Positions 4,112 through 64,000 of a stretch of DNA of 64,000 bases are shown here, piece by piece. The translations under genes were made by a program, and so were the position numbers. Every line of letters starts with the position of its first letter. The stretch's first letter is position 1. A model generated the notes under the pieces. It searched no databases, had not been told where the DNA came from, and was given only the letters and a program-made list of their open reading frames with translations. The DNA comes from Rugalucina vietnamica (taxonomy: Eukaryota; Mollusca; Bivalvia; Lucinida; Lucinidae). The DNA is taken from NCBI GenBank assembly GCA_964017185.1, contig OZ024884.1:17382548-17446547 (forward strand). The letters are read 5' to 3'.

Positions 4112-5211
4112 CTAAATGTCTTTTGGTTTATGACAAGTCTCCGTGTATTTTGGAATTGTTTTATAAACTTTCCTATTTGCTTCTAAGTTATTGAGTTTTC
4201 TGCATAACGAGCAGAATGAGAGACACCTAGTTTCATGTAGTGACACTGTTTCATAACTATCTTTTCGTCTAAGATAGGCAGTGTATTTATGCTCATGCGA
4301 AGCAACATATTTGAGATATTTTACAAATTCTGCGAAACTTTTAAAGTCGGATGTGTTTATGTATAAATCATCCGGTAATAATTTGTTATAATTAGCTCCT
4401 CCTCTCACAATCACAACGGCATCTAGTGGAAAATATCGAAAAAACTTGTCAGTAACATAATCAGAACATAAAGAATTTTCAAAACCTAAGTAGAATTTAT
4501 AGTCTGAATTTATCATTTTAAATGGTTCTACTTTCAGCTTTGTTCCACATCTACCATAAATATCGATATGGAATCCTTGTTGTTTCATTTTAGCAACAAA
4601 TTCGTCCCGTTTACTATACGCTTGACAATTACTTACTATCCACGCAGCAAATTTTGTTTTCCTTCTAAATATTTCGCTATAATTTCGTTGTGGGATATAT
4701 TTTCTAGGCTTTAGATAACCATACGGTGATGCGATATCGGAATTAAGACGATAGGACATTGACCAGTTAAAACTGTTTTGCCAGGTAGGAACAAATTTCT
4801 GTAACCGGTTATTTATCAGTAACGGTGGCTCAACACCAAAGAATACCCAAGCCTGGTCAGAGTTTCTTTCTAATGGAAGCATTGGTGGTGTTTTTCCGAT
4901 TCCGCCGTCAGTGATGGTAAATATGATAGCTGAACTGTCTCTTATTTTTGATTTGTCCGTACTAAAAGCACAGTTTTTGTAGACACATGTTTGAAGACAA
5001 CTATTGAATTTATCCAATGGTATCCATTCAGGTTTATTATACCACAGTATTGTGTGACATAAATGTTTAGCCACATTTAGAACTTCGTTCCTTTTCCCTC
5101 CGGCAAGAAACTGTTCAGTTATGTCAACCAGGAGCGGTGGTTCGTCTGACGAATTGTACCTGGTGACGCCATATTGATACGAACGAAGACTTGGAATATG
5201 CTTGTCAAACG
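4112..5211 (-). CDS. Alpha-(1,3)-fucosyltransferase, catalytic exon (GT10)
   Basis: This 1.1-kb exon encodes about 366 residues of a GT10 fucosyltransferase, a Golgi enzyme that transfers fucose from GDP-fucose to GlcNAc on glycans. Family signatures appear in order: FFGVEPP, FNWSMSYR with SDIASPYG, AAWIVSNC, the DIYGRCG block, and the GDP-fucose-binding FENSLCSDYVTDKFF at 4439-4483, followed by VVIVRGGANY and YINTSDFKSF. I start the exon at 5211 because the sense strand there has a strong acceptor, TTTGTTACAG followed by CGTTTGAC. The open frame upstream of that reads only a TAA microsatellite (as poly-leucine) and transposon sequence. No lesion is visible inside the exon. The membrane anchor must come from an upstream exon; a candidate is at 9598-9747. 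Specificity (alpha-1,3 on Lewis-type or core structures) cannot be read from sequence alone. Confidence 0.93.
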
Positions 5212-5219
5212 CTGTAACA

Positions 5220-5220
<1 letters not shown>

Positions 5221-5289
<69 letters not shown>
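5221..5289. repeat. (TAA)n microsatellite abutting a splice acceptor
   Basis: About 23 copies of TAA lie immediately intronic to the GT10 exon. On the sense strand they read TTA and supply the pyrimidine-containing stretch before the TTTGTTACAG acceptor. Read in frame they give an artificial poly-leucine tract. Confidence 0.95.
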
Positions 5290-5344
5290 GAGATGTTCGT
5301 TGAAACGTAACCAAATCCAAATAAACCGAATCGAGTTGATGGTA

Positions 5345-6365
5345 CAGTACAGTCAGCGTGATGTTTATATCCTTCGCGCTCACGCACGAAAGAAAAAAGG
5401 ATTAAGTTCCACGCAAAACCCACGCAAAACCCTCGCTCATTCCTCGCAAAATCCACGCTTGTTCCACGCTATGTCCACGTTCATTCCTCGCAAGAAGCGT
5501 GTGAGTTGCGTGAGATATAAGCAGTTCCACGCTTGCTCACGCTTTCCACGTTCATTTAGGAAAAGAAGCGTGGAAAAGATTAAGAGACATGCGAGAAAAG
5601 GATTATCGTTTCGTCTTATTCAAAAGGGTAAAATTGTTAAAGTTTTGTGACCAAATTAAATATAATATATAATTTAATAATTCTTAGTACGAGGAAGGCA
5701 ACTTAGTATGATGACGGTAAACCTGTACAAATACATACACTTGTACGACAAAGCGCCCGTACGTAAATACATACGCATGTTTTGACGAGTTGCAGTCTGA
5801 GCAATACGTTATTCAGTGTTGATTCAATTATCATCGTAGATTAAGTGATGACAAAATTTGCACGTTTAAATATTATTTGGCAGCGACGTGCATTTTTGAC
5901 TGCCGCGGTTTTAGATGCAGAACATTTATATCTGATACTTTTGCCATAAGAGAAGATGAGCACCCCAGTTTTTTGTTTTTCAGAACATCTCTCAAGTAAA
6001 TGGGTCTTACGTATTCTCTAAGATGCCCAACGTCAATTAAAGCTCGACCTACATGTAATACGGTTCAAGCACCTTGCTACATGTACATGTATCACTTAAT
6101 CATAAATTACGATGTACGTTACAATTAAATTTACATGCAATTAATTCATCTTAATTCATCTTAAGAGTCGGTACAATGCCCCTGCGAGAATTCTGATTCC
6201 CTTTAACATGTTCAGCATTAACCAAAGTCAACAAAATCAGGGTTTCTTTATTCTTGTATCGGCTCAATTATTGTACACAGGATTAATAAGCGACATAGCC
6301 TCTAAGTTAAAATTAACAAGTTGACTCTAATTTGGTGCATAAAGTTATAAATTATCCTAATCAAA

Positions 6366-6965: not shown

Positions 6966-7560
6966 TATCCTGTGATTTTTAAAGGGCCTGTTACTGGGTA
7001 TGGGGAATTAACTTAGGAGTTTGCCCACGCTTGGAAATTTATGAAATTATGTGCATTTATTGTCTTGGTTATGACTGCTATAAAAATGGTTAATTCCATT
7101 TTAAATGCTATTCAGTTGGCAAATGATGGCGTATTATATAACGTCACTACCATAGCTAAGGGTACCTTATTTTAAACATCTCTGTAGATACCAACATTTC
7201 ATGAAACGAATGCTGAAATCTTTCCAGAATTAAAGTAGCCATTGGTTAGGACATTGATTGTATGAATGACTTTGTTAGCATCGAGATAGTGGCTGAGCAG
7301 TCATTTTTATGCAAACGTAACCCTAATTTTCACCTTTATTTTAAAGTGGAAATAAAGATAAAACTGAGAATTCGAAATTTACTGTGTTCCAGTCTTTGTC
7401 ATGAAAACATTTTTAATATAAAACTGTCCACATATGCTGTTGCTTGTTACATTCATTACACTTGGCCCCTAAAAATTAAACTTGCTCACTCATAATTACT
7501 AAGTAATTAACTGAATGATTTATGCTTGTCGGGCTTTTCCTGTATGTTTATTATAATTAA
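6966..7560. other. Intronic stretch without gene
   Basis: Between the GCGTGA element and the 373-bp tandem repeat I see no coding signature, hairpin or terminal repeat. The frame at 7262-7495 has no recognisable domain. Confidence 0.5.
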
Positions 7561-8455
7561 TAAAATATAAAGGTTTGATCCTTTGGAAGCAGCTAAAACA
7601 TTCAAAGGGAGACAGTATGGACTATATTGCGCAATTTCGGGTAATGAACCCTCATCAGTAGCCCTTTTTAAACCAGCAACGAAATCCAGTCTATTGTACT
7701 GCAATTTGGAAAATTTACATGAGAAGTCTAAATCAAAGACACATTCCTAAACGGGTTCAAAAAATTCAAACATTGCTTAGAAGTATGTTTCTAAACGTGA
7801 GTGTTTTGAACACTCTGAATATCTTTACCGATCTCAAAGGACCTAAATAAAATATAATCTGCACTATGGATGATGTACGGGGAGACTTTTTAGGGCCGCC
7901 ACACGGCACAACACCAGCTGCAGTAATAGCAAATAAAATATAAAGGTTTGATCCTTTGGAAGCAGCAAAAACATTCAAAGGGAGACAGTATGGACTATAT
8001 TGCGCAATTTCGGGTAATGAACCCTCATCAGTAGCCCTTTTTAAACCAGCAACGACAGCCAGTCTATTGTACTGCAATTTGGAAAATTTACATGAGAAGT
8101 CTAAATCAAAGACACATTCCTAAACGGGTTCAAAAAATTCAAACATTGCTTAGAAGTATGTTTCTAAACGTGAGTGTTTTGAACACTCTGAATATCTTTA
8201 CCGATCTCAAAGGACCTAAATAAAATATAATCTGCTCTATGGATGATGTACGGGGAGACTTTTTAGGGCCGCCACACGGCACAACACCAGCTGCAGTAAT
8301 AGCAAATAAAATATAAAGGTTTGATCCTTTGGAAGCAGCAAAAACATTCAAAGGGAGACAGTATTGCGCAATTTCGGGTAATGAACCCTCATCAGTAGCC
8401 CTTTTTAAACCAGCAACGAAAGCCAGTCTATTGTACTGCAATTTAATATAATAAG
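7561..8455. repeat. 373-bp tandem repeat, about 2.4 copies
   Basis: The phrase TAAAATATAAAGGTTTGATC recurs at 7561, 7934 and 8307, a constant 373-bp period, with few differences between copies. Each full unit carries the same minus-strand frame of about 100 codons, which follows from unit identity and resembles no protein I know. The third copy is cut short at about 8455 and has a ~12-bp internal deletion. A tandem block of this kind may be the core of a non-autonomous transposon, but ends are not evident. Confidence 0.9.
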
Positions 8456-13613: not shown

Positions 13614-14180
13614 TTACTTAAGTATATATTCTGGTGGAATATTGACACTTTTTATTGTTAGGTTTTTCATCTCGTTTTTTACAAATGCCTTATAGCCAAG
13701 TGCCTCGTATAAGTGCTTGCAAAAGTTATTTATCTTTTTGACAACATCCCATTTTATCTTATGTCTCCACCAAAACGCTGTATTTGTGTCTCTCTCTCTT
13801 CGCAGTTTCTTGTGAGAATGCATTAATACACTTCTCACATTTGAATATTTGGATTCATTTAGAGACATGCCTAAATATCTATAAACTGACTTTATTTTTT
13901 CCAAAGGGTCTTTAAGTAAGTCTTCGTAGTATACAAATCTAAATCTAGCCGGATACTTCTTTAATAGTTTCTGACCCTCTTGGTAATCATATATCATCTT
14001 TTTACACAGTGATTCAGCATTTGAGGAAACGTTTTTGAACGGATACCATTCTGTTTCGATCCTACTGTTAATTATTGCCCTTGGGTCTCTAAACAGTTGG
14101 ATAACCTTGAGATTATCCCGTGACTGAAGCAAAGTTTCGGTGTTATCTGGAGAAAGTCTCAAAACTTTTGTGACGCGGTG
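13614..14180 (-). pseudogene. Carbohydrate sulfotransferase exon, 3' part (split by transposon)
   Basis: This encodes the C-terminal 189 residues of a Golgi carbohydrate 6-O-sulfotransferase-like enzyme (CHST1-like/GlcNAc6ST group), which moves sulfate from PAPS to sugar hydroxyls. The 3'-phosphate-binding motif is visible as LFRDPRAIINSR, followed by FVYYEDLLKDP and AFWWRHKIKW, close to the paralogue at 43027-43700. The frame is intact to its stop but opens abruptly at the end of a 3.1-kb element. The missing 5' part of the same exon is at 17278-17375. Frames at the two sides join as N-A-K-H-R-V, matching N-A-S-H-R-V in the paralogue. In this sequence the gene should be disrupted, unless the insertion is polymorphic or removed by unusual splicing. 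The 5'-PAPS-binding loop lies in an upstream exon I could not find. Confidence 0.9.
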
Positions 14181-14470
14181 TTTACACTACTGCAAAAGGG
14201 TACCATTAAAATCCTGTTAAAATACCATTAATGACCCATGAATATACCAAAAACCATTAAAAGGAGCCATTAGTCTTTGCAGAAAAAAAATAATGGGTTA
14301 AACCTTCAGCCATTAAAATGCTCACTTATGGCCATTAATTCAAGATTTTACCATTAAAAAGACATGGAATGCAGATTAATATAATGTTGCGGCATAAAAG
14401 TATAGGCATTAAAAAAGTAATGGGCCATTACTTCTTGTTTTAGCTTTATTCATGCCCATCAACTACCATG

Positions 14471-15545
14471 AACATTTATTCATGCCCATCAATCCACCAA
14501 TGAATGATGGCCATTAAATACAAAAACGTAACAAATAATGGCCATAATAAAGATTGCTAAAAGTCATTGGCATTAAAAACATATGGCGATTAATCATGGC
14601 CATTAATATATCATTGAATTCTGAATCAGGCCATTCATGGGGCAATAACTTTGTTTGTAATGGGGATGAAAGAAATACTGAGAAAAGTTTCAACTTCTTT
14701 CATTTTGATTTGTGCCCATTAACTACCATGAACATTTATTCATGCCCATCAATCACCAACTGATGATGGCCATTAAATACCAAACAGAAACAAATAATGG
14801 CCATTATAAAAGTTGCTAAAAATCATTGGCATTAAAAAAACTCTTGATGATTAATTATGGCCATTAATATATCATTGAATTCTAAATCAGACCATTCATG
14901 GGCATTCACTTTGTTTGTAATGGGGATGAAAGAAATACTGAGAAAAGTTTCAACTTCTTTCATTTTGATTTGTGCCCATTAACTACCATGAACATTTATT
15001 CATTCCCATCAATCACCAACTGATGATGGCCATTAAATACCAAACAGAAACAAATAATGGCCATTATAAAAGTTGCTAAAATCATTGGCATTAAAAAACT
15101 CTTGATGATTAATTATGGCCATTAATATATCATTGAATTCTGAATCAGACCATTCATGGGCATTCACTTTGTTTGTAATGGGGATGAAAGAAATACTGAG
15201 GAAAGTTTCAACTTCTTTGATTTTGATTCATGCTCATTAACTACCATGACAATTTATTCATGCCCATCAATCACCCACTAATGATGGCCACTAAATACCA
15301 AACAGTAACAAATAATGGCCATTATAAAAGTTGCTAAAATCATAGACATTAAAAAACTCTTGACGATTAATTATGGCCATTAATAGTATCACTGGAATTC
15401 TGAATTAGATCATTCATGGGCATTAACTTTGTTTGTAATGGGGATGAATAAAATCCATAAAGGTTTTAATTTCTTTCATTTTGATTCATGCTCATTAACT
15501 ACCATGAACATTTATTTATTAACTACCATGAACATTTATTCAAGC
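14471..15545. repeat. ~260-bp tandem repeat inside the CATTAA element
   Basis: The phrase AACATTTATTCATGCCCATC or its variant recurs at 14471, 14731, 14991, about 15249 and about 15507, a period of 258-260 bp. Middle copies are the most alike, and the last is partial with a 33-bp local duplication of AACTACCATGAACATTTATT. Confidence 0.9.
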
Positions 15546-16482
15546 CAAGCAATCACCCATGAAAGATGCTTACTGATGACCCATAATCCCATGCCCTCTG
15601 ACCTCACTTCCTTTTCCTGTTTCATATAATTTTAGAAAGTGAACAGATATCTAGTCTGAACAAATCTTCAAATATCTAAGGCATCAGAATGCCTACAAAC
15701 AAGAAACTTGAAGAATAAACTGCAGACAGGCTAAGAGATGCTAACAGGAAGAGAAAACTGCAAAAACATTGATGGAAAATGGTCAAGGCAAAGCTTATGT
15801 AGAAAATTGTGCGGAATGAAATTCAATGAACATTTCTGGAAAGATAAATTGATATAAGCTAGGACTTGTAAAACGAGATTGTTACACTTGCTGCCTTGCA
15901 GGTAAGCATTTTAGAAGAACTTTGATGCTAATTTGCTAAAATATGAACATTTGTACATGTTGCTCTTATTTATCATACTGCAGATGTGTCTGATTGGGGT
16001 TGGGGTTTTGAGATTCCATATTCTGGCCTGAATTTCATTTCAGAGACACTTTCTGGGTACATCCTTCCAATGCAAACAGGCCATTGAAACAACTAAATAG
16101 ATGGCAGCAAACCCATCCCATCCATTTATCGATTGCAACTGTGTTGGTTGTTCTCAGTAGCAATTTGCTTATATGACTCCTTGCTCTTTATTAATAGTCC
16201 TAAGCTCTTGATAGCTCTTTCACCATGTTAAGATTTGGCAATTAAGTCTAGCAATAATGTGCATGAAAGCCATAATATGATTCAACAGTAATTCTTGATT
16301 CAGGGCTCTTGTCAGGGTCTACACTGCACAGCCTATGGACATGGTCTAGATTAATGGCCTATAACAGTCCCTTCCCCCATTTCATAATGGCCATTATTTT
16401 TTGTTGCCATTATTTTAGACCCATTACTGGACCTGTCCCCCCACCCATTAACCACATTGTAGGGTTACGGTAATGGGCATGA

Positions 16483-16697
16483 TTTGGATTAATGGGCATT
16501 CGAATAATGGGCATTAAAATTTTCAATGCCCGGGATTTTTCCCCATTGTTTGGCCATTAGAAAATTTATGCCCATTAACAATATTTAAGGGGTTTAATGG
16601 GCATTAGAATAATGGGCATTAAAATGTTCAATGCCCAGGATTTTCCCCATTGTTTGGCCATTAGAAAATTAATGCCCATTAACAATATTTAAGGGGT
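16483..16697. repeat. ~107-bp duplication inside the CATTAA element
   Basis: A block containing AATGGGCATTAAAAT, TTTCCCCATTGTTTGGCC and CAATATTTAAGGGGTTTA occurs twice in direct order with a few substitutions. Confidence 0.85.
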
Positions 16698-17277
16698 TTA
16701 CTGTAAAGGGCATGGTTTTGCTATGAAAAAAATACAATTACATTTTCATGGCCATTTCCAGGCAGATATTTTGACCATTAACTTGCCATTTTATTTTTAA
16801 TCCCCATTAAATTTATTTGGATAATGGGCATGGTAAAACAGTGGAAAAAATTCTCTTTCCCATTAATCCAAACTCATGCCCATCACAATGTCGCTTTTAA
16901 TGGCCACTGCCCATTAAATTATGCCATGAAAAATAGTAATGGGTCATGACTTTAGAAATTATAAAAAAATCATGGCAACCATTAAAAAATAATGGCTACC
17001 ATTAAAAAATTAATGCCCATGAGTATACATATTTGTAATTGTCATTATTTCCTTAGTAATTAACCCTGAAAAATTAATGCTCGCATTTGTCTATTTATGG
17101 CCATGAATGACTTCTTTAATGGCCATAACTCTCCCATTAATGGTAATTTAATGTCATTTTAATGGCATTTTAACGGTTTATTAATGCCCATCACAATGTC
17201 GCTTTTAATGGGTGATGTTAATGGCTCAAGCCATGAGTTTTCATGGCTGATTCATGGTTGATCTGGCAGTAGTGAAA

Positions 17278-17375
17278 TTTGGCATTGTTACACAGTGTTG
17301 GAAATTTCTGGCTGATGCACGCATTGTTTTGTCCTTTTTTGGCTATACACTCGTCCACTGACTTCCAAAGTGGAC
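17278..17375 (-). pseudogene. Carbohydrate sulfotransferase exon, 5' part (split by transposon)
   Basis: On the minus strand the acceptor TTTGTTTTGCAG is followed by about 98 coding bases that align with the start of the paralogous exon at 43700. Both begin G-T-C-C after AG, in the same phase, reading P-x-W here and P-S-W in the paralogue, and both run to C-x-N-A. The frame ends at the edge of the 3.1-kb insertion. With the TTT duplication counted once, this part plus 13614-14180 makes a 665-base exon, against 674 bases in the paralogue. This was found by comparing the two loci, not from its own length. Confidence 0.85.
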
Positions 17376-18395
17376 CTGCAAAACAAAGGATTTTTGTCTA
17401 ATTCTGAATACGAACGTATAATTCGAAAGCCCCTTAGAGCTTAAATTTCTTGTCGATTGATAATAGAAAAATGTTTGATATTATTAGTCATCTTGAAGGA
17501 CAGCTGACAGTGGTAAATTCAGACCAGTATAAAACGATATGTTGAAAACGACCAGTATAAAACGATATGTTCCATGGGTTTCATCAATATCGAGATGATA
17601 TTATATAATTACATTTCTTATAATAGTCGCTACATAGAAACATCTGTTTTTCTGATAGATTTTGTAACAATGAAGTGGTAACTACTAATATATATGTTTA
17701 AATATATACAGTCGTATAGTCATGTCGTAGGGAGCTGTAACATTTTCAATTTTTCAATTCAGTCTATGTCAATTCACTATAGCTTAGTTCATATTATGTG
17801 TAACTTTTGAAACACACTGATATACTACTTTGGAGATGCCACCTACGTCATGTCATAATCTTGTTATATTACCATCCATATGCTTATCATCCTACATGTA
17901 TCCATTTTTCATGCGTATTGGATGTTCGATCTGATCGCAATTTTATGGTTGCTGGCAGACACAGCCTAGATCAGGGGTGCCATATTAGTATAACTGCTCT
18001 GGGCACTGCATTCCTCAACATTTGCTTTGCGGTCATCCAGTACTCACGATAAAATATGTCAAGTTAGTGTATTTGTGTATTTGTATTGAATGTTTTGAAG
18101 ATGCGCTAAAATGTATTTGGCAATCTGAATAAAGAATTGAATTGAATGGGTAGAAGAAGTTATGCACGTTTTCTGGGGCGAAAGTATTTAATTGTGTGAA
18201 ATTCAGGTATTTGAAAAGTATGTTACGTTAAACGTATATGTTATGAACGTTTACCTCTTAACAATGCCCTATTGTTTTCAGTATTCTGTCAATCATTTCG
18301 TGACGTCATTCAGAACGGCAGCCATTTTTCATGTCGACTGGAACTTAAATTTGTGTTTGCTTAGTTTCATAAACCTGTTTTTGGAACAGTGGGAA
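17376..18395. other. Intronic or intergenic stretch without gene
   Basis: No upstream sulfotransferase exon with a P-loop-like 5'-PAPS motif is visible here. A short direct duplication (GACCAGTATAAAACGATATGTT) sits at about 17521-17572. Confidence 0.5.
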
Positions 18396-30699: not shown

Positions 30700-31604
30700 C
30701 CAATTAATGGGTCCAATTAGGAATAGCACTTACAACATTAAAATAGAAACTCAGCACGTGCAAATATTTATTGGCACACACATGTCGTATAGATTACAGA
30801 TACCCTGTTCATGTGTTGTGCATTCAATCAAAACGAACCGAAACACGCCTATCATCAAATTATAGTGGTGTGCTACCTTCCAGTGTCAGTGCAGTGGGGT
30901 GACGACAGCTGATTATTGTTACGTCACAGATTACTTCACAGACCTGCGAAATTTGCAGATTCCTCCTGCATTTTGCTGTCGTTGTTTTTAGACGATTCTC
31001 TTGAAAATAAATGAAATTGTACATTGTATGGAATATGAATTTGATCATAGTGCTACTAGAATTACTAAAATGACGGGATCAAAGGCCAATGGTAAGATAA
31101 AACATTTGCTTTTGTTCACATTTTATGTCAACAACAAGCCAAACACTGTTCCAGAAATGTCGCCATTTTCTCCGGTTTTACCATTTTGAAACCGAAAGTA
31201 GATTTTAGATTGTGGCAGAAATTTAGGGCCTATAAAAAGTTTTTGATGAAAATTGGCACACAGACAGAAAATTTTATGCTCTGTTTGGTTGTCAAGATGA
31301 AAAATTTCCAGTTTATTCGCAAATTACTGCTTTTTTCGTTTTTCTGAGGGCACTGTCAAACGGCAAAAAACTCGCAACTTTAACGCGGTTCTTCAGCGAC
31401 ACCGGGATAAATTCACGCATACGGCAATTCTTTTTGAACCGAATGATGTTCGCTTTTTCTATTTTCATCGCTGACAGATCGCAAATGTGAAGTATAAACG
31501 AGAACTTTGATGATAAACGCATCAACTGAAATGGGGCTTCAAAAATTGGAAGTAGTTCCCGGGAACGAACGCACGTGAATTTTGTTTTTAAAATCCTACG
31601 CTAG

Positions 31605-32217
31605 GCCCATCTCCGTTCCCGACTGGTATTCTGATCAACCAGACATAGATTTACTTATCATTATTCTTACCGTCCATGAAAATGTTCAACAACGAACAGC
31701 ATTAAGAGACTCGTGGTTGACTCCTACTACTAATAATACTTCCAATGTACGATACGCTTTTCTTCTTGGTGAGATAAAAGATAGAAAGCTACAAGCAGAT
31801 ATTATGAGAGAAAATGATGCGTTTAAAGATATTATTAAGGAAGATTTTGTGGATGTGTATAGCAATTTAACTTATAAAACAATAATGGGATTCAAATGGG
31901 CGGCTATAAAATGTGGTGTTGCGAAGGCTGTGCTAAAAACTGACGATGATATGTTTATTAATGTACCAAACGTTTTAGATATTGTGAAGAGCCATTTTAA
32001 TTTCTTACAGACAGGTATAGTTGGTTCTTGCTGGAAGAGCACCAGACCGAATCGTAATCAAAAATCCAAATGGTATGCTTCCGAGAATAGTTTCCCAGGA
32101 AAGGTTTATCCAAGTTTTTGCTCAGGAACAGGGTACTTGACAAGTTTGAATGTGGTTCGAAGAGTGCTTGAAATTTCCCCTCATGTGCCATTCTTTCATT
32201 TAGAGGATGTACATGTA
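31605..32217 (+). pseudogene. Beta-1,3-galactosyltransferase-like (GT31) exon, 5' part
   Basis: This encodes about 204 residues of a GT31 glycosyltransferase, a Golgi enzyme adding galactose or GlcNAc in beta-1,3 linkage from a UDP-sugar. Signatures appear in order: RTALRDSW, VRYAFLLGE, DFVDVYSNLTYKT, the metal-binding motif KTDDDMF (DDD at 31942-31950), YPSFCSGTGYL and FHLEDV. The acceptor before it (TCCTACGCTAG) sets the start at 31605. At LEDV the frame runs into a 1.2-kb inverted-repeat element and stops 17 residues later at 32268. The natural continuation is at 33416-33612. No other lesion is visible in this part. Acceptor sugar and linkage are not determinable here. Confidence 0.9.
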
Positions 32218-33415
32218 CAGCTCGGTTTCAAAAATAACATACCCCTGCAATGTCGCAAAATAAATTGACCTCTTCACCTACATTGCTTCGACCATTGCTT
32301 GATGACTGTTGACCTGGTTCAAATGAAACTTCTACAGCTTGTGCATATATTTATGTGTGTTAAAATGGTATTAAATTTATAGTGTTCATGAGCAGTCCGA
32401 TCGGATAGGAAGCTGTCTTTGGCGTATACCAAAATTCTGACAGATTTAAAGTCAAGTTTGCAAGTTTAGGCGATTGGTATGATGTACGTACTGTGAATAT
32501 TGCCACTTTCTGACCTGACTGCAATTCATGGACATCTATTTTAAATACCTTAAAACTTGCACAAGATTCGCTTTACATTTAAAGTAATGTAATAATGATT
32601 AAATGGACGCGTATCCTTTTATTACAGGCGTGTGTTAAGGAAAAAAACTGTTCTAACTGTCCATTTACATCTTACCGTGTTCTCTTGCGCCTGATATTTG
32701 TTTCGTTGGAGTTTCTCTGGAATTATTTCTTATATAGACCGTCTTCATAATATCACTAGTCACAGTATTTCGATCAAATCTATTCACATACCAACAAATG
32801 TCTTTGATTAATGTATTATGTTTAAGAAGGTCATGGCATAACTTTAACAATGTCATAAGCATGTGCGCGTTGCTTGAGAAAAAAAAAATATATAAAATAT
32901 CTAAAAATAATAATTTCGATTATCACTGCTATTCTCAGATGCAAATTTATAAAATTGAATAAATTTGAAGAGCATTTTGTGCTAAAAACATGCATTTGCA
33001 AGGTACTTATATACAAGGCAGTGGGTGCATTAAACTTCTACTTTCTGATTCTATACTTGTTCGAGTGTGGTGCAAGTTTTAAGATGTCCCAAATGGGTGT
33101 CAATGCATAGCATGCAGGTAATAAAGTGGCAATATTCACACTACGTACACCATGCCAACCGCCTAAATTTGAAAACTTGACTTTAAATATATCAGAATTT
33201 TGGTATACGCCAAAGGCACCTTCCTGTCCGATCGGACTGCTCATGATCGATATAACATTAATACCACTTAAACACACTTAACCATATGCACGAAATGTAG
33301 AAGTTTCATTCGTACCAGGTTAATAGCCATCAAGCAATGGTCTATGCAATGTAGGTGATGAGGTCAATTTATTTTGCGACATTGCAGGGGTATGTTATTT
33401 TTGAAACCGAGTCTG
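32218..33415. mobile_element. Inverted-repeat element with ~290-bp arms, inside the GT31 exon
   Basis: Left arm 32221-32512 and right arm 33125-33411 are reverse complements with scattered differences. Both start CTCGGTTTCAAAAATAACAT at the outer edge, preceded by CAG on the left and CAGA on the right. About 610 bp of unrelated, non-coding sequence separates them. The flanks TACATGTA (32210-32217) and TATATGTG (33416-33423) match at 6 of 8 positions, consistent with an old 8-bp duplication of hAT type. It interrupts coding sequence exactly at the conserved EDVYV block. Confidence 0.85.
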
Positions 33416-39059: not shown

Positions 39060-39985
39060 CATAGAAGCATCGATTCCTGGATATGAGCTAGAAGCCTGCA
39101 CAACCGTCGATGTCTAGACATGAGCTAGAAGCCCAAACACCTGTCAATCCCGGGACATGAGCTATAAACCCATACACCTGTCAATGCCTGGACATGAGCT
39201 ATAAGCCCATACACCTGTCGATGCCTGGATATGAGCTATAAGCCCATACACCTGTCAATGCCTGGACATGAGCTATAAGCCCATACACCTGTCGATGCCT
39301 GGACATGAGCTATAAGCCCATACACCTGTCGATGCCTGGACATGAACTAGAAGCCCATACACCTGTCGATGCCTGGACATGAGCTATAAGCCCATACACC
39401 TGTCGATGCCTGGACATGAGCTATTATAAGCCCATACACCTGTCGATGCCTGGACATGAGCTATAAGCCCATACACCTGTCAATGCCTGGACATGAGCTA
39501 GAAGTCCATACACCTTTCAATGCCTGGACATGAGCTAGAAGCCCATACACCAGTCGATTCCTGGACATGAGCTAGAAGTCCATACACCTGTCGATGCCTG
39601 GACATGAGCTATAAGCTCATACACCTGTCGATGCCTGGACATGAGCTAGAAGCCCATACACCGGTCAATGCCTGGACATGAGCTAGAAGCTCATACACCG
39701 GTCAATGCCTGGACATGAGCTATAAGCCCATACACCTGTCGATGCCTGGACATGAGCTATAAGCCTACACACCTGTCGATGCCTGGACATGAGCTAGAAG
39801 CCCATACACCTGTCAATGCCTGGATATGAGCTAGAAGCCCACAAACCCGTCGATGACTGGAGCCTTGGGCATGAGCTAGAAGCCCCAAAAACCATCGATG
39901 CATGTAGCCATGGACATGAATTAGAAGCCCACACACCTGTCGATGGCTTGACAGGAGCTGGAAGCCCACAGACCCAAATTGATAT
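39060..39985. repeat. 37-bp minisatellite, about 24 copies
   Basis: The unit ATGCCTGGACATGAGCTATA plus AGCCCATACACCTGTCG repeats head to tail; successive ATGCCTGG starts at 39184 and 39221 give the 37-bp period. Central copies are nearly identical, and edges are diverged with some 39-44 bp units. Since 37 is not a multiple of three, reading frames shift between copies and the array is unlikely to be coding. Confidence 0.95.
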
Positions 39986-43026: not shown

Positions 43027-43700
43027 TCAGACTAAAATGTACTCCTTTGGGATTTGTATACTTTTGTATGTTAAATTTTTCATTTGGTTGTTATTGTTAA
43101 ATGATAAATACCCAAAGGCCTCGTACACATCCTTGCATAAAGTGTCAAGCTTTTTAACAGTATCCCACTTCAATTTTCTTCTCCACCAAAATGCATTGTT
43201 TTTCTCTCTTTCTGTCAAAACTCTATGTTTGCTACTATTAGCCGCTATTAAATTCTTAATTGCAGAGTACTTATTTTCATCAAGCGACATCCCTAAAAAC
43301 TTATACATTGCTCTAACCTTTATAACCGGATTGGCTTTCAAGTCCTCGTAGTATACGAATCTAAATCGTTTAGGGTATTTCACTGAAAGTTGTTTGCCCT
43401 GTCGATAATCATGTATCATTTTCTGGCAAAGCGCTTCAGCATTAAGTAGCATGTCTTTTAAAGGGTACCATTTAGTTTCTATCCTACTATTGATTATGGC
43501 CCGCGGATCTCTAACTAAATGTATGACTTTGAGATTTTTCCTTGACTGAAGTAGGCTTTCAAAATGCTCTGGGGCAAGTCTCAAAATTTTCGAGACACGA
43601 TGTGAGGCATTAGTACATACTTCTGGAATGTACTGATGCACACATTTTGAGGTAATCTCTTTCTTGTTGAGACACAGCATCGTTGACATCCACGACGGAC
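43027..43700 (-). CDS. Carbohydrate sulfotransferase, C-terminal exon (intact paralogue)
   Basis: This terminal exon begins at 43700 after the acceptor TTTTCTTTTCAG and encodes about 224 residues of a CHST1-like/GlcNAc6ST-type Golgi sulfotransferase. The 3'-phosphate-binding motif LVRDPRAIINSR lies at residues 58-69 counted from the first ATG (43689). FVYYEDL and AFWWRRKLKW follow, as in family C-termini. The family's PAPS 5'-phosphosulfate loop is not here and must be in an upstream exon outside the recognised region. The exon starts at codon position 2, like its paralogue at 17375, so both genes share the intron position. It has no stops or shifts. Two cysteines (KCVH and VCTN) are conserved with the paralogue and may form disulfides. 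The exact acceptor sugar is unknown. Confidence 0.92.
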
Positions 43701-45290: not shown

Positions 45291-46980
45291 CACTGCTATA
45301 TTGTTGTTCCTTAATTTGATTCAAAAGTGTTTCGTCCTGGGCAATGATACCTGCCCGTCATGTCAGCCTCTCTCTAGGGCAACAATTGTATAATGTGACA
45401 TTGGAATATGTTAATGGATATACTGGTTAAAGTAGAGTAATGGGGCGCGTTTTCTTGTTTCCTTAAACACCCCAACAAATCCATGAAAGATGTCCTTATA
45501 CGTATACATTGTGTTTCTATTGGCACAATAAAACAAACATCGAGTTTTGCAGCAAATTTGCATGCTACACATATTCAACGTTCAGAAAAAATAGCCAGCA
45601 CCCTTATTTTCTTAATATTGCTTAAATGAAATGCCTAAATGAAGTCAGCAGGTAGCGAGGAGCATGATGTTGAGAATTCCCAAGGTGGGGCATTTATAAA
45701 TGTCGGTATGTGCCACAACAAATCGACTTGTAAGAATATTGACAACGCTTTTGACCACCGTCGACCAGTCAGAGGCCACGCATTACCTCACAAGTGCATG
45801 ATCACAACATTCGATAATGACAACAATTGTTGCAGTAAAGCCCTTTTATCGTCGTCGAAATAGTACAAGAATAGAATTACGTCGACTTACTGCAATTGCT
45901 TTTAATGATACGGTGACAAAGCCGTGCCCTTTGTCTGTCGCAACGTTATTTACGCCAACCCTTACAATACGGGCTTTCTTAGGCGGAAAATCAGTGGTGT
46001 TACTCCCGAAGTTACCCTAAGCAACCCTATCGCACAGGTGTATATGTGTAGCATTCCTTTGCTTTTGGCATTCATAAAATATTTTCGCAACGAAATGTTT
46101 CATAGTCTTTAGTAGGTTTTTTTAGCCTTTCTCGTCATTGGCTTGAATTATTCTCATATTGAATTTCGCATTTGCTAATATTGTGCTTTTTTATATATAA
46201 TTTTACAATGCCAGTTTAGAATAGATAGCGACAATCCAAGGACTGTGACACTGTTCAACGTAACTGATATTGTCTTACTTTTTGTTTCATGTCGCAGCTA
46301 TTCCGTTAATACATGTACCCATTTATGCTAAGAGCAAATTTAATCAATTAATTGGTACATACTTACCACTGACATTTGCAGTGAAATCGGTGAGCACTAG
46401 TCTCTCAAAGTCGTTGAACTTGCAAGAATATATGTTGTGCAAGATTTTCAGGACTAGATTCAGAGAGCCTCGAATACTGAAAACATATGGAATTCTTTAT
46501 CCCCGAGAATGAACTTTTCAAACGTTACAAGCATGTCAGTAAGTAGAGTGTTATTTTTGTTGTTGAGTACAATACTCATACTATACGCATGCATACAGGG
46601 TTTAAATTCTCGGTAGTTGATGCTTTGTCGTCATATTTTGAACAGGCTTGAATAATATGCCTACCTGTCTGAAACCAAAATTTTGATAGTCATACCAGGT
46701 TTAAGGCAGCCACCAATCCCATGGAATTTTGTGTAGTTTTTGCTGACAATTTACATATCAGAAAACAATGACCAAGCAGCAATTACAATAATCGATTCGT
46801 TGTAATAGACATTTCTTGCCTATTCTGAGATGTATTCTGAGTTGTAAATACACCATACATTGACAAAAAGTCAGGGATTATCTCAAGATATTTCATTGCA
46901 TCGACACACTTTAAGAATAATTTAGTTTATCCCCAGCTATTCAGTTGTAAATAAAATACGTTCGTTCGTACGTACACTCT
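45291..46980. other. Stretch without recognised gene
   Basis: Overlapping open frames at 45639-46112 and 46270-46512 have mixed composition but no domain, no splice logic and no mutual continuity that I can recognise. Confidence 0.4.
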
Positions 46981-48139: not shown

Positions 48140-51100
48140 TCATGCGGTGCAGATGGGGCTCGTTAGCCTTGGAAGGCAACTCATCTAGGAGTTAAGCTAG
48201 TTCTCTACACAAAAATCTAGCTGGGCAGGGGGAACTCATTAGTCTTGGTTGACAGCCCTCCTAGGAGTTTACAGGTCTCTAAACAAAACCTAAGAAAGGG
48301 TAGATGGAGCTCTTCAGCTGTGGCCAGCAATTCATCTAGGAGAAGGAAACTCCAAAATCAAACCTGTGTGTCTGGATATGCCTAGTCCAGATATGCAAAG
48401 GCTGTTTCGGTAGATGGAGCGGAAGAAATCATCTGATTCAACGGTTCAGAAAGCGATACAGCAACATGTTGTGGAACATGCAGAGCGTGACAAGGCACTA
48501 AAGATGTTACGGTCATCCACTGCATCCAAACCCAACTCCAGACGTCTTGACCTGTGTCTTGCCTCTGGGCGCAGCTGGGCGAGGACTAGAGAGTGAGGTT
48601 GACGTTGCGCACCTCTTCCTCACTATAATCCAATTTCATAGCGCATGTCATCTTATTTCTCAACACACAAGCACTTGCATACACAACAATTTCATCACAC
48701 TTGCACCCACATACCTACAAAGTCCTGTGGCGATGGGCGAGTGGCGAAGCAGCAGGTGTAGGACACACTGGGAGCTGTAGTTGCAGACCTGCACACAGGC
48801 GGCTCAGTTCTAATGGTCGCTTTCTGTGAGGAGAAGCAGTAAGCAGAATTCGGCAGTCGGCTGAGTGACTGAGCAGACCTATTTAGGACCGCACTGCTCA
48901 CCCCCGTAGCATGGGGAAGGGGCTAGAAAAGGTGCCCTAAACAATTGCCTGCTTCAAACCCCCTGGCTGGTTAACCGCGATCAGCGGGGATCCCCTTAAG
49001 CGGTCGAAATACAAAGAAAAAAGCTAGAGTAATCCCCTTACGGATTGGCGCATGGAATATGCGCACTTTAATGGATAGTGCTGGGTCAGATAGACCACAG
49101 CGTAGAACGGCCCTTGTGGGCAGAGAACTTGGGAGGTATGATATACAGATAGCTGCATTGAGTGAGACTCGGTTCGCAGATGTTGGGGAGATCAAAGAAG
49201 TTGGTGCTGGATACACCTTCTTCTGGAGTGGACGCAAAAGTGAAGAGAGGCGTGAAGCAGGAGTTGGCTTTGCCATCAAAACAGAACTTGTTGGTAAGCT
49301 GTCAGGATTGCCAAAAGGCATTAATGACCGTCTAATGACATTGAGACTTCCTCTGTCAGGCAATAAACATGCAACTATTGTCAGTGCTTATGCACCCACA
49401 ATGACCAATCCAGATGAGGTCAAGGACAAGTTCTATGATGACCTAGACAATGTTATTTCTGCAACACCCCGCACAGACAAGCTTATCCTTCTTGGCGACT
49501 TTAATGCCAGAGTGGGTACAGACCACCAGACCTGGGAAGGAGTTATAGGTCCAGAAGGGGTTGGAAAGTGCAACAGCAATGGTCTCTTGCTTCTCAGGAA
49601 GTGTGCTGAACATGATCTTCTAATCACCAACACAGTCTTCCGTCTACCTAATAGGAACAAAACATCCTGGATGCATCCCCGTTCCAAACACTGGCATCTC
49701 ATAGACTATGTCATAGTGCGGAGAACAGACAGGCAGGATGTTAAAGTGACAAAGACTATGTGTGGTGCAGACTGCTGGACAGATCATAGACTGGTTGTCA
49801 GCAAACTCAACCTAAGAATACAGCCTGCGAGGCGACCTCAAGGCAAGAAAGCTCATATGAGACTGGATGTCTCAAAGCTGAATAAAGACAGCATGAGACA
49901 AGATTTCTTAACAGACATTTGCAACCAACTGGATGCAATGAATCTCAGTTCAGAGGACCCCGAAGAAAACTGGACAGTTTTCCATAAAACAGTTCTTTCT
50001 TCAGCTGCAAGCACCTTAGGCCATCCATCTCGCAAACATCAAGACTGGCAAGACTGGTTTGATGAGAATGATGATAAAATTCAGAGGCTTCTTGAAGAAA
50101 AGCACCATTTGCTCAAGGCACATCAAGATGATACTAGCTCAGTATCAAAGAAAGCAGCCTACAGCAACATTTGTAAGACAGTCCAGACCAAGCTTAGGGA
50201 CATGCAAGATTCCTGGCTGAGGAAGAAAACAGAAGAAATTCAGTCTTTTGCGGATAGAAAGGACATGAAGAAATTTCATGATGCACTGAAAACCATTTAT
50301 GGTCCAAAGAGTTCTGGAGCCACCACATTGCTCAGTGCAGATGGAAACACTCTTCTCACAGACAAAGAAGCTATCTTGGAAAGGTGGGCAGAACACTTCA
50401 ATAGTGTGCTTAATCGACCATCAAGCATCAATCAGAATGCAATCGACAGACTTCCACAGATAAAGTGCAATGTTCTGTTAGATGAATTTCCTACCGTTAC
50501 GGAAACAAGAAAAGAAGTTCAACAACTATCATCTGGCAAAGCCCCAGGTGCAGATGCAATTCCTGCCGAAGTTTACAAGGCTGGGGGGCTACCCATGGCA
50601 GAGAAACTGACAGAGTTGTTTCACTGTATGTGGAGGAAGGAGGCTATCCCACAAGAATTTAAGGATGCATCCATAATCCACCTATACAAGCGGAAAGGAA
50701 ATCCTCAAGTCTGTGACAATCACAGAGGCATCTCCCTCCTATCAATTGCTGGGAAGATACTTGCAAAACTTCTGTTAAATCGTCTGAATGCTCATCTTGA
50801 TCAGATGGGACTTATCCCAGAAAGTCAATGTGGATTCAGAAAAGACAGAGGGACAATAGACATGATCTTCACAGCAAGACAGCTTCAGGAGAAATGCCAA
50901 GAACAGAATGTAGATCTATACATGACGTTTGTTGACCTCACCAAAGCTTTTGACACTGTTAGTCGTGATGGACTCTGGAAAATCATGGCCAAGTTTGGCT
51001 GTCCACCTAGATTCATAGCTATGGTGCGGCAGTTTCATGATGACATGCAGGCACGTGTGCAAAATGATGGAGAGTTCTCTGAACCATTTGAAGTAACAAA

Positions 51101-52330
51101 TGGGGTCAAACAAGGCTGTGTTCTGGCACCAACACTGTTCAGCATGATGTTTTCTGCCATGCTTATGGATGCTTTTCAGGACAGTGACACTGGTTTTCCA
51201 ACCAGGTACCGTTTTGATGGCAACATATTCAACCTCAGAAGGTTGCAAGCCAAAACTAAGGTCCAGACTGATGTGCTAGATGAGCTCCTCTATGCATATG
51301 ATATGGATAAGAATGCCAACACAGAGGCAAAAATGCAAAGAGCCATGGATCAAGTCTCACAGTCATGTGATAACTATGATCTCACAATCAGCACAAAAAA
51401 GACAGAGGTTGTACACCAACCAGCCCCCGGAAAACCATATAATGAACCAACCATCACTGTGAATGGGCAAAAACTGAAAGTTGTTGACAAGTTCACCTAC
51501 CTGGGAAGCACTCTCTCCAGAGCAGTGCATATTGATGATGAGATCACTGCCAGAATTGCAAAAGCTAGTGTGGCATTCGGAAGACTCCGTGCAAATGTCT
51601 GGGAGCGAAATGGAATCAAGCTTGACACCAAGCTGAAAGTCTACAAGGCTGTGGTACTGCCAACCCTTTTGTATGCATGTGAGACCTGGACAGTATACCA
51701 ACGCCATGCAAAGAGACTTAACCATTTCCACTTAAGCTGTTTGAGAAAGTTGTTAAAAATCAAGTGGCAGGACAAGATTCCAGACACAGAGGTCCTGAGG
51801 AAAGCAGGGATGCAAAGCATGCATACAGTCTTAAAGCTAGCACAGCTAAGATGGACTGGCCATGTTATAAGAATGCCTGATGCGCGACTTCCAAAGAAAG
51901 TTTTCTATGGAGAACTACAGGAGGGAAAGCGCTCTCAAGGTGGCCAGAAGAAACGCTACAAAGACACCCTCAAAGCCTCTCTGAAGGATTTCGAAATACC
52001 AATGGGGTCCTGGGAACAGACTGCACAGGAGCGATCAAAGTGGCGAGGTCTCATCAACAAAGGAGCAGCTCTCTATGAAAAGAAGAGAATCTGTGAAGCT
52101 GAAAGAAAGCGAAGAGAGCGCAAAGCCAAAACAAATGTGCCACCAGCAGACTCTATGACATTGACTTGCTCTACTTGCAACCGACAGTTTAGAGCCAGAA
52201 TTGGCCTAGTCAGCCATCAAAGAACTCACCAACACACATCAGCACTATTCAAGAAATAATGATGGTCTTTCTCATTAGTGAGAGACGAACTATCATTCTC
52301 CGTCTCCCGCTGATTCATTTTTAGTCAGCG
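48140..52330 (+). mobile_element. Non-LTR retrotransposon (RTE/CFDP2-like), near full length
   Basis: A 5' region with about three imperfect ~75-bp units (GGGCTCGTTAGCC at 48157, GGAACTCATTAGTC at 48231, GGAGCTCTTCAGC at 48306) is followed by a short 60-codon frame at 48414-48596 and the long ORF at 49059. The 3' UTR is short. I see no poly-A tail or target duplication, so both boundaries are approximate. Base composition is richer in GC than the flanks, which fits recent arrival. Confidence 0.8.
49059..52259 (+). CDS. Endonuclease-reverse transcriptase polyprotein of a non-LTR element
   Basis: This is a 1066-codon intact frame. Residues 1-250 are an APE-like endonuclease, with LSETR, AYAP, LLGDFNARVG (D147, N149) and WTDHRLV (D242, H243). 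Residues about 480-800 are the reverse transcriptase, with SGKAPGADAIPAEVYK, GISLLSIAGK, ESQCGFRK, motif A FVDLTKAFDTV (D626) and NGVKQGCVLAP. The catalytic box reads YAYDMD at 745-750 where the family has YADDM; Tyr747 replaces an essential Asp. The C-terminus has a C2H2 knuckle (C1037, C1040, H1053, H1057). The endonuclease WN-M-RTL motif straddles the first ATG, and the frame is open upstream from a TAG near 48926. The natural protein therefore probably starts before 49059, with no ATG in between, implying a lost start or shift. Predicted inactive for reverse transcription. Confidence 0.93.
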   Translation: MRTLMDSAGSDRPQRRTALVGRELGRYDIQIAALSETRFADVGEIKEVGAGYTFFWSGRKSEERREAGVGFAIKTELVGKLSGLPKGINDRLMTLRLPLSGNKHATIVSAYAPTMTNPDEVKDKFYDDLDNVISATPRTDKLILLGDFNARVGTDHQTWEGVIGPEGVGKCNSNGLLLLRKCAEHDLLITNTVFRLPNRNKTSWMHPRSKHWHLIDYVIVRRTDRQDVKVTKTMCGADCWTDHRLVVSKLNLRIQPARRPQGKKAHMRLDVSKLNKDSMRQDFLTDICNQLDAMNLSSEDPEENWTVFHKTVLSSAASTLGHPSRKHQDWQDWFDENDDKIQRLLEEKHHLLKAHQDDTSSVSKKAAYSNICKTVQTKLRDMQDSWLRKKTEEIQSFADRKDMKKFHDALKTIYGPKSSGATTLLSADGNTLLTDKEAILERWAEHFNSVLNRPSSINQNAIDRLPQIKCNVLLDEFPTVTETRKEVQQLSSGKAPGADAIPAEVYKAGGLPMAEKLTELFHCMWRKEAIPQEFKDASIIHLYKRKGNPQVCDNHRGISLLSIAGKILAKLLLNRLNAHLDQMGLIPESQCGFRKDRGTIDMIFTARQLQEKCQEQNVDLYMTFVDLTKAFDTVSRDGLWKIMAKFGCPPRFIAMVRQFHDDMQARVQNDGEFSEPFEVTNGVKQGCVLAPTLFSMMFSAMLMDAFQDSDTGFPTRYRFDGNIFNLRRLQAKTKVQTDVLDELLYAYDMDKNANTEAKMQRAMDQVSQSCDNYDLTISTKKTEVVHQPAPGKPYNEPTITVNGQKLKVVDKFTYLGSTLSRAVHIDDEITARIAKASVAFGRLRANVWERNGIKLDTKLKVYKAVVLPTLLYACETWTVYQRHAKRLNHFHLSCLRKLLKIKWQDKIPDTEVLRKAGMQSMHTVLKLAQLRWTGHVIRMPDARLPKKVFYGELQEGKRSQGGQKKRYKDTLKASLKDFEIPMGSWEQTAQERSKWRGLINKGAALYEKKRICEAERKRRERKAKTNVPPADSMTLTCSTCNRQFRARIGLVSHQRTHQHTSALFKK

Positions 52331-62025: not shown

Positions 62026-64000
62026 AGGACCAATGGTCCTGTAAACGCTCACCTGAAACCTGAGATATATACCACTAAACTTGTTTGACAAGAATGGTAA
62101 TATACATGTATATAACCCCAGGGCCATGTCAGAGCAACCCCTGGAGTCATTATTTCTTTTTGAAAACATAAAACTTCAGTCCATTTGCCAATTTACTGCA
62201 AGTTTTGCCCTTCAAATGACATTTAAACAATTTTCTCCATTCAAATGCATGGGCGACCTAAGTTGATCTTGTCGTAAAATAGGTCAAGGTCATCCAAGGG
62301 TCACGATTTATATAAACTTTGTAGAGCTCCATTGCCTGATGCTTCATGCCAAGTTTCAAAATCATAGGCCTTCTGGTTCTGGAGAAAAAGATTTTAAAAG
62401 GTTTTTGCTATTTAAAGCCATGGCAGCCATCTTGGCAGGTACTTCATACTCCCGGTCCCGAAATGTATCCAGGCATGTGCACATACTGTTTTACTCTAAA
62501 GAAAGCACATCTGATTATTTGTCCTGTGTTTATAAGAGCGTCTAATTTCGGGACACGGAGTATGAAGTACGAAGCCAAATAGCAAACATGTATTTTGTAT
62601 GGGCCAAAAATTTCGGGACAATCATAGCTTTATAGGGCAGGTATTTAGGGATTGTGTCACACATTTGTACATTTGATGCTGGTGTCTACGTAGCTATCTG
62701 GCAGTTAAGTTGCGTGAGTTGTGTAAGTTGTAATAGTTACCTTTGTTAGGACGACATAAACGAAATGTAGATGGAAAAAGCTATAAATAACAGAAATTTT
62801 TGCGTATTGTCATCATGTTTTAAGGCCTTACGATAGTCCTGAAGCTCTAACTATTCCTTTCCAAGGAAACGGCCGCCAAACATACGTATGATAGACCACT
62901 ATTGTAAGTTAAGCTCTGTAAGTTGTCATAGCTGACAGTGATAAAAGATAAGTTCATTAAGTTGGTCAAATGCATGGGCGACCTAAGTTGATCTTGTCGT
63001 AAAATAGGTCAAGGTCATCCCAGGGTCATGATTTATACAAACTTTGTAGAGCTCCAGTCACTGATGCTTCACACCAAGTTTCAAAATCATTGGCCTTCTG
63101 GTTCTCGAGAAGAAGATTTTTAAAGGTTTTTTTTTTCTATTGATAGCCATGGCGGCCTCTTGGTCATGTGACCTTGACCATTTATATAAAATTTCTTTCC
63201 CCCTTCCCAAGGATGCTCCATATGAAGTTTGGCTTCGATTGGCCAAGCGGTTTCAGGGCCCTGGAGAAAAGATGTTTCATTATTATGGAAATATACATGT
63301 ATCTAGCCCCAGTGCAGGGGCAGACAACCCCCAAGGGGCTAAAATTTTCCATTAACATTAAACTTCTGTCCATTTGCCTATTCCCAAAAAGTTTTACCCA
63401 TTAAATAGCATTTTACCATTTTTTCCCATTCAAATGCATTGACAACCTTAGTTGACCTTGCCGTAAAATAGGTCAAGGTCATCCCAGGGTCATGATTTAC
63501 ATGTATATAAACTATGTAGAGCTCTAGTCACTGATGCTTCACATCAAGTTTCAAAATCATTGGCCTTCTGGTTCTTGAGAAGAAGATTTTTAAATGTTTT
63601 TTTTTTCTATTTATAGCAATGGCGGCCATCTTGGTCATGTGACCTTGACCATTTATATAAACTTTCTTTCCCCCTTCCCAAGGATGCTCCATATGAAGTT
63701 TGGCTTTGATTGGCCAAGCAGTTTCAGGGGAGAAGATGTTTCATTATTATGGAAATATACATGTATATAACCCCAGGGCAGGGGCAGACAACCCCAAGGG
63801 ACTAAAATTTTCCATTAACATTAATCTTCTGTCCATTTGCCTATTCCCAGTAAGTTTTACCTATTAAATAGCATTTTACCATTTTTTCCCATTCAAATGC
63901 ATTGGCGAACTTAGTTGACCTTGTCGTAAAATAGGTCAAGGTCATCCCAGGGTCATGATTTATATATACTTTGTAGAGCTCCAGTCACTGATGCTTCACA
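62026..64000 (+). mobile_element. GCTCACC-ended repeat element, runs off the window
   Basis: It starts GGACCAATGGTCCTGTAAAC as in the copy at 34447 and carries at least four internal units, marked by GGTCAAGGTCATC at 62282, 63006, 63472 and 63938. The first two units are spaced about 724 bp because of an insertion at 62438-62960; the others are spaced about 466 bp. The end lies beyond 64000. Confidence 0.75.
62438..62569. mobile_element. ~130-bp MITE nested in the GCTCACC-ended element
   Basis: GTACTTCATACTCCCGGTCC and onward to CGAAAT at the left faces its reverse complement ending GGAGTATGAAGTAC at the right. A further unmatched 390 bp follows before the host repeat resumes at about 62966, so a larger insertion may be involved; ATTTCGGGACA recurs at 62610. 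Confidence 0.65.

Follow-up and report, generated by a model that had tools for sequence, protein, structure and literature searches.

A putative CACTA-type transposon in a sulfotransferase terminal exon of the bivalve Rugalucina vietnamica

The CACTA (En/Spm) transposons of plants are described in PMC8978399 as having CACTA ends, 3-bp duplications, and close direct and inverted subterminal repeats. The animal TRC elements, among them SmTRC1 of Schistosoma, are placed in the CACTA superfamily and, in the descriptions given in PMC1636069 and PMC4298943, have ends beginning with CCC and duplications of 2 bp. CACTA-classed elements are reported to account for 8.2% of one clam genome and for 3.0% and 4.6% of two others (PMC11373642, PMC11890763), and going by these bulk annotations an animal host for CACTA elements is nothing new. 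The element analyzed here lies in a stretch of 64,000 nucleotides (the window) on contig C16 of Rugalucina vietnamica; the assembly searched comprises 1.09 Gb in 47 contigs. With plant non-autonomous CACTA elements, as PMC8978399 presents them, it shares the CACTA ends, the 3-bp duplications and the subterminal repeats, but it differs from plant CACTA elements in that no transposase is linked to it by shared termini and that its duplication does not abut its ends. The TRC elements carry Transposase_21, a domain present in this genome too, but their CCC ends and 2-bp duplications (PMC1636069, PMC4298943, as far as these describe them) contrast with the CACTA ends and 3-bp duplications seen here. 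The literature search found no publication evidently about this kind of insertion or about non-autonomous CACTA elements in molluscs.

The host of the insertion is a sulfotransferase terminal exon on the minus strand (exon A), which is present as two halves, 17278-17375 and 13614-14180, with repetitive DNA between them (Table 1). The 3' half aligns with the uninterrupted exon of paralogue B over 190 columns at 59.5% identity (E 9.5e-83), and the 5' half corresponds to the beginning of the paralogue exons, with E 4.7e-5 against B and E 9.9e-10 against a paralogue on C14. The acceptor before the 5' half (TTTGTTTTGCAG, followed directly by GT) has the same phase as that of B. On the strength of the matches to the paralogue exon and the shared acceptor phase, the two halves were accepted as one exon, as the preliminary description had proposed. 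Excision of 14184-17277 (3094 bp) joins 98 and 567 bases into 665, which make up 220 stop-free codons and a stop codon and read NNAKHRV across the junction, so that the open frame of 665 bases and the N-A-K-H-R-V junction described earlier are borne out. The Pfam model for Sulfotransfer_1 (PF00685) matches the 3' part of exon A with 44.8 bits and B with 58.7 bits (gathering cut-off 22); the 5' part alone (32 aa) is too short and has no Pfam match. Both A and B are probably carbohydrate-sulfotransferase-like (Sulfotransfer_1).

Table 1. Features of the interrupted exon, the inserted element and paralogue B, in window coordinates.
Feature	Position	Strand	Basis or remark
3' part of interrupted terminal exon A	13614..14180	-	Sulfotransfer_1; includes stop codon
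TTT, left copy of inferred target duplication	14181..14183	+	sequence read; open frame after removal
Single extra A between TTT and element end	14184..14184	+	comparison with other copies
Putative non-autonomous CACTA-type element, 3090 bp, CACTACTGC...GCAGTAGTG	14185..17274	.	genome copies, ends, duplications
Span of TAATGGCCATTA-type repeats	14326..17193	.	31 of 36 window matches (at most 2 mismatches)
258-bp tandem repeats in element, 4.1 copies	14448..15516	.	repeat search
Three extra A between element end and TTT	17275..17277	+	absent from element in other copies
TTT, right copy of inferred 3-bp target duplication	17278..17280	+	AAA, Lys codon, on coding strand
5' part of interrupted terminal exon A	17281..17375	-	acceptor AG 17376-17377 precedes; codes GPLWKSVDECIAKKGQNNACISQKFPTLCNNA, first Gly split over intron
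Uninterrupted terminal exon, paralogue B	43027..43700	-	Sulfotransfer_1
Middle exon, paralogue B (110 bases)	46367..46476	-	phase fits both terminal exons (A and B)

The inserted DNA is repetitive, with at least 75 genome matches on many contigs when 40 of 237 candidates were scored, and its exact 25-base left end occurs at 20 places genome-wide compared with 0 for a reversed-pattern control; these counts indicate a repeat family rather than a chance similarity. Thirty loci around copies were fetched (L001-L010 and L019-L038; the copies of L036 and L038 also appear, in shorter views, as L005 and L006). The nearest full-length copies are dispersed and 97-98% identical to the window copy, and a second subfamily is about 7% distant. 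Among the 27 left ends read, CACTACTGC is unchanged in 22 and carries one change in five (L008, L021, L024, L026 and L033). In the 21 copies with both ends visible, a perfect abutting 3-bp duplication is found in 17, a duplication with one mismatch in two (L019 and L021), and none in two, namely the window copy and L022 (C8:58617700-58622600). The latter has CTA on the left and AG followed by CTA on the right, possibly representing two extra bases at one end. The window copy has CACTA at both ends, inverted over 9 bp, and subterminal short repeats are present in both orientations, inverted pairs included. A palindromic 12-mer has 31 of its 36 window matches inside the element, where 5.2 would be expected across the whole window. 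DNA folding of the element ends gave z-scores of -0.44 and -2.33. The longest stop-to-stop frame wholly within the element is 80 aa, leaving it no coding capacity. Classed by its ends and duplications only, the element is a non-autonomous CACTA/EnSpm-type transposon: inverted CACTA ends and subterminal repeats are present, and the 3-bp duplication is shown by the family, and by the window copy only if the four A's described below are allowed.

On the plus strand the junctions read GGTG-TTT-A-element-AAA-TTT-GGC. TTT is thus present on both sides (14181-14183 and 17278-17280), as reported in the preliminary description; the 3094 bp given there stand as the removable length, whereas the element itself has 3090 bp (14185-17274), one and three stray A's having been wrongly counted in. 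The notion that TTT abuts the element was rejected: the adjoining bases are TTA and AAA, which form no matching duplication, whereas in 17 of 21 copies the duplication does abut. At the private divergence of the window copy, the probability that point mutations alone would have erased an abutting duplication is about 8.5e-4, and extra junction bases are therefore the better account. In all six close relatives read (B, C14, C4, C1a, C1b and C1c) the break point is occupied by exactly one codon, coding for Lys in three, Thr in two and Ser in one, the Lys codons whose bases were examined being AAA or AAG. One codon in all six and Lys in three make N-A-K-H-R-V a credible empty site, and the single codon together with the 3-bp duplications of the family makes the TTT duplication credible. 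Apart from the element, the ten bases enclosed by GGTG and GGC are all A or T, so that finding TTT on both sides is only modest evidence in itself. That TTT is the target duplication is accordingly plausible from the sequence, provided that four extra A's, which call for an additional step, lie between duplication and element. These may be donor bases carried along by the element or bases added in repair, and they raise the question of how exactly this element family cuts and rejoins.

The dispersed copies also allow the insertion to be dated. In a set of nine close copies, the window copy has private differences at 24 of 2830 sites (0.85%) and three private 1-base gaps; private divergence across the nine ranges from 0.68 to 1.27%, with 28 shared non-consensus cells in total. 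As most differences are private to single copies, the pattern is star-like, as from one burst, and 0.85% sets an approximate ceiling to the change accumulated since insertion. The suggestion in the preliminary description that the insertion may be young gains from this figure but little from the open halves on which it had been based: under simulated neutral change both halves stay open with a probability of 0.72 without indels, falling to 0.45 at 2 indels per 2830 bp and to 0.22 at 5, and survival at these rates makes the open halves no argument for polymorphism and a weak one for recency. No empty allele was found in the single assembly searched, which says little either way. For the left flank, the best other genome match covering the exon has 70% identity, and a near-identical second copy was not found; for the right flank, the first 334 bases match nothing but themselves in the genome DNA search. 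The flank DNA searches were insensitive (that with the left flank missed paralogue B), yet an allele should have shown. Datable from its dispersed copies and with an empty site defined by relatives, the insertion is a clean example of a coding exon disrupted by a transposon.

The comparisons made within this genome support a transposon insertion in the sulfotransferase exon, and very probably a non-autonomous CACTA/EnSpm-type transposon of 3090 bp entered the terminal exon, duplicating TTT, leaving four A's and knocking the exon out. A transposase acting in trans would have moved the element, which would have inserted beside the Lys codon of N-A-K-H-R-V, with TTT duplicated at insertion and the four extra A's left at the element ends. 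Reading through from the 5' half, a stop lies inside the element 19 codons after the Lys codon. The reading frame of a transcript entering exon A would end there, and the product would be without the RDPR segment, which we take to be 3' PAPS-binding, and everything downstream of it. Misassembly of the element at exon A is scarcely credible: it draws on there being a single assembly and on the duplication not abutting the element, but the flanks match a single exon collinearly down to the codon, no near-identical exon halves were found elsewhere, and the window copy has the private changes given above. The frame being open on both sides would also fit an element that acts as a new intron and is spliced out, and 12 frame-preserving splice pairs were found within the region searched; the best 8 of the 12 have donors ranked 62 or lower of 167 and delete coding sequence (with approximate splice weights), making this reading very improbable. 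Given the stop in the element and these weak, coding-deleting splice pairs, the haplotype studied here most likely has no functional exon A. Mutations of this kind are ordinary; the present one is slightly unusual in its four stray bases and in striking an orphan exon.

Before the insertion, exon A was an old coding exon lying downstream of B, either as an alternative last exon or as a partial duplicate; the relatives compared with it are the members of the close clade, which were those read among 58 genome matches. In the C14 paralogue a PAPS-loop exon (SYMRGGST) is followed by a middle exon and then the terminal exon, and paralogue B has the same set, the PAPS-loop exon being located beyond the window, at C16:17449913-17450083. 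Over the 104 kb scanned there is one PAPS-loop-exon match and one middle-exon match, both of them B's, for two terminal exons. The C14 upstream-exon queries recover B's exons at 2.5e-30 and 4.7e-9, against best E values of 0.22 to 1.7 when 12000-43000 was searched by homology with the C14 and B exons, and motif scans near A revealed nothing convincing; hidden upstream exons belonging to A were thus rejected. With no upstream exons recovered for it, exon A is an orphan, and the earlier portrayal of A as a second, complete gene falls. The PAPS-binding loop at the 5' end, which in this group is on a separate upstream exon, was not found for A in 12000-43000 either, so A alone would be a partial sulfotransferase rather than a full one. 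Like Sulfotransfer_1 sulfotransferases, it has the PF00685 match and an RDPRA segment, and its paralogues have the upstream YMRGGST exon; unlike the full enzymes, it is a lone terminal exon.

We put at about even the chance that A functioned as an alternative last exon in the transcription unit of B and was maintained by selection until the insertion. The single set of upstream exons for two terminal exons argues for this, as does the location of A, which lies some 26 kb beyond the last exon of B in the direction of transcription, shares its strand, and has an acceptor phase that equals B's and fits B's middle exon. So does the record of selection: A and C14 differ at 63, 37 and 114 sites in codon positions 1, 2 and 3, and NG86 returns no finite dS for A-B and A-C14 (dN 0.33 and 0.26) and a dN of 0.32 with a dS of 1.25 for A-C4. 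Since third positions have changed most and dS is not finite for A-B and A-C14, A had been under purifying selection for most of its history. Against a shared transcription unit, A is nearer to C14 (137/220 identical) than to B (124/220), and its own upstream exons could have vanished recently; the gap between A and B is about 26 kb. A seven-member tree groups A firmly with none of the others, the inner nodes near it having support of 56 and 61; in this tree C1a and C1b keep untrimmed intron residues ahead, so that counts between those two include extra columns, and C4 is represented by its first 148 residues (this copy contains two stops). If A served as an alternative last exon, then what the insertion abolished was one form of an enzyme, probably a glycan-modifying one, and not a whole gene. 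The other reading that accepts the insertion, to which we assign somewhat less than an even chance, makes A a partial duplicate that was already dead when the element landed. It would account for the missing upstream exons and has a parallel on C1, where the distal of two terminal exons, with no PAPS-loop exon before it after the preceding one, is also split and has IDPC for RDPR. A long-dead exon should have decayed, however, and in A both halves are open and the acceptor and RDPR motif are intact at 54-62% identity to the relatives.

On C1, a PAPS-loop exon (13714429) precedes two terminal exons (13720300 and 13738835). An insertion other than the present element, with long inverted ends, interrupts the distal one, and farther downstream there is one more PAPS-loop exon (13776927). 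The IDPC motif and this extra downstream PAPS-loop exon leave the parallel suggestive only. We hold it unlikely, if worth stating, that the group uses tandem alternative last exons, with the C-terminal half swapped behind one shared PAPS-loop exon, and that the distal one was killed independently by transposons at C16 and C1. The split relative occupies roughly 455-1790 of the fetched locus (L061, C1:13737000-13739500), and the inverted ends of its insertion are about 24 bp long (CTAAAGCCTAGGTTACATTTGCCC..., read by eye).

As a source of mobilization in trans, the Transposase_21 domain (PF02992) was searched for and has 15 genome matches, six with 901-aa open frames; none lies inside the element, as expected for any non-autonomous copy, and none of the 15 is near any of its 20 exact left ends. 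Eight of the 15 loci were compared with the element, seven of them in views with about 1.5 kb per side, and no common termini were found. As autonomous partners, L060 (9.9 kb, containing L054), in which the element finds just a 20-base chance match, and L052-L059, which are without a shared end within about 1.5 kb, were rejected for now. The long element copies L020 and L036 have no long frame in their insertions (up to 129 and 112 aa). Loci L054-L060 are found on C4, C5, C9 and C11, most with 901-aa open frames. Over about 3.4 kb, L060 shares 99.3-100% identity with five further loci, L055-L059 (L059 as two pieces), indicating recent activity of a CACTA-type family.

Other repeats are present in the window. 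Just upstream of exon A, a repeat of at least 487 bp (17614-18100, where the query ended) is 93-95% identical at no fewer than 39 other places, and a LINE-type open frame of 1094 aa with endonuclease and reverse transcriptase domains is located at 48975-52259 (plus strand). Tandem arrays occupy 39070-39861 (37 bp x 21), 7559-8444 (373 bp x 2.4) and 62966-64000 (463 bp x 2.2, to the window end). A fucosyltransferase (GT10) at 4112-5401 (minus strand) and a galactosyltransferase frame at 31579-32268 (plus strand) lie near the sulfotransferases, giving the window the appearance of a glycan-gene neighborhood.
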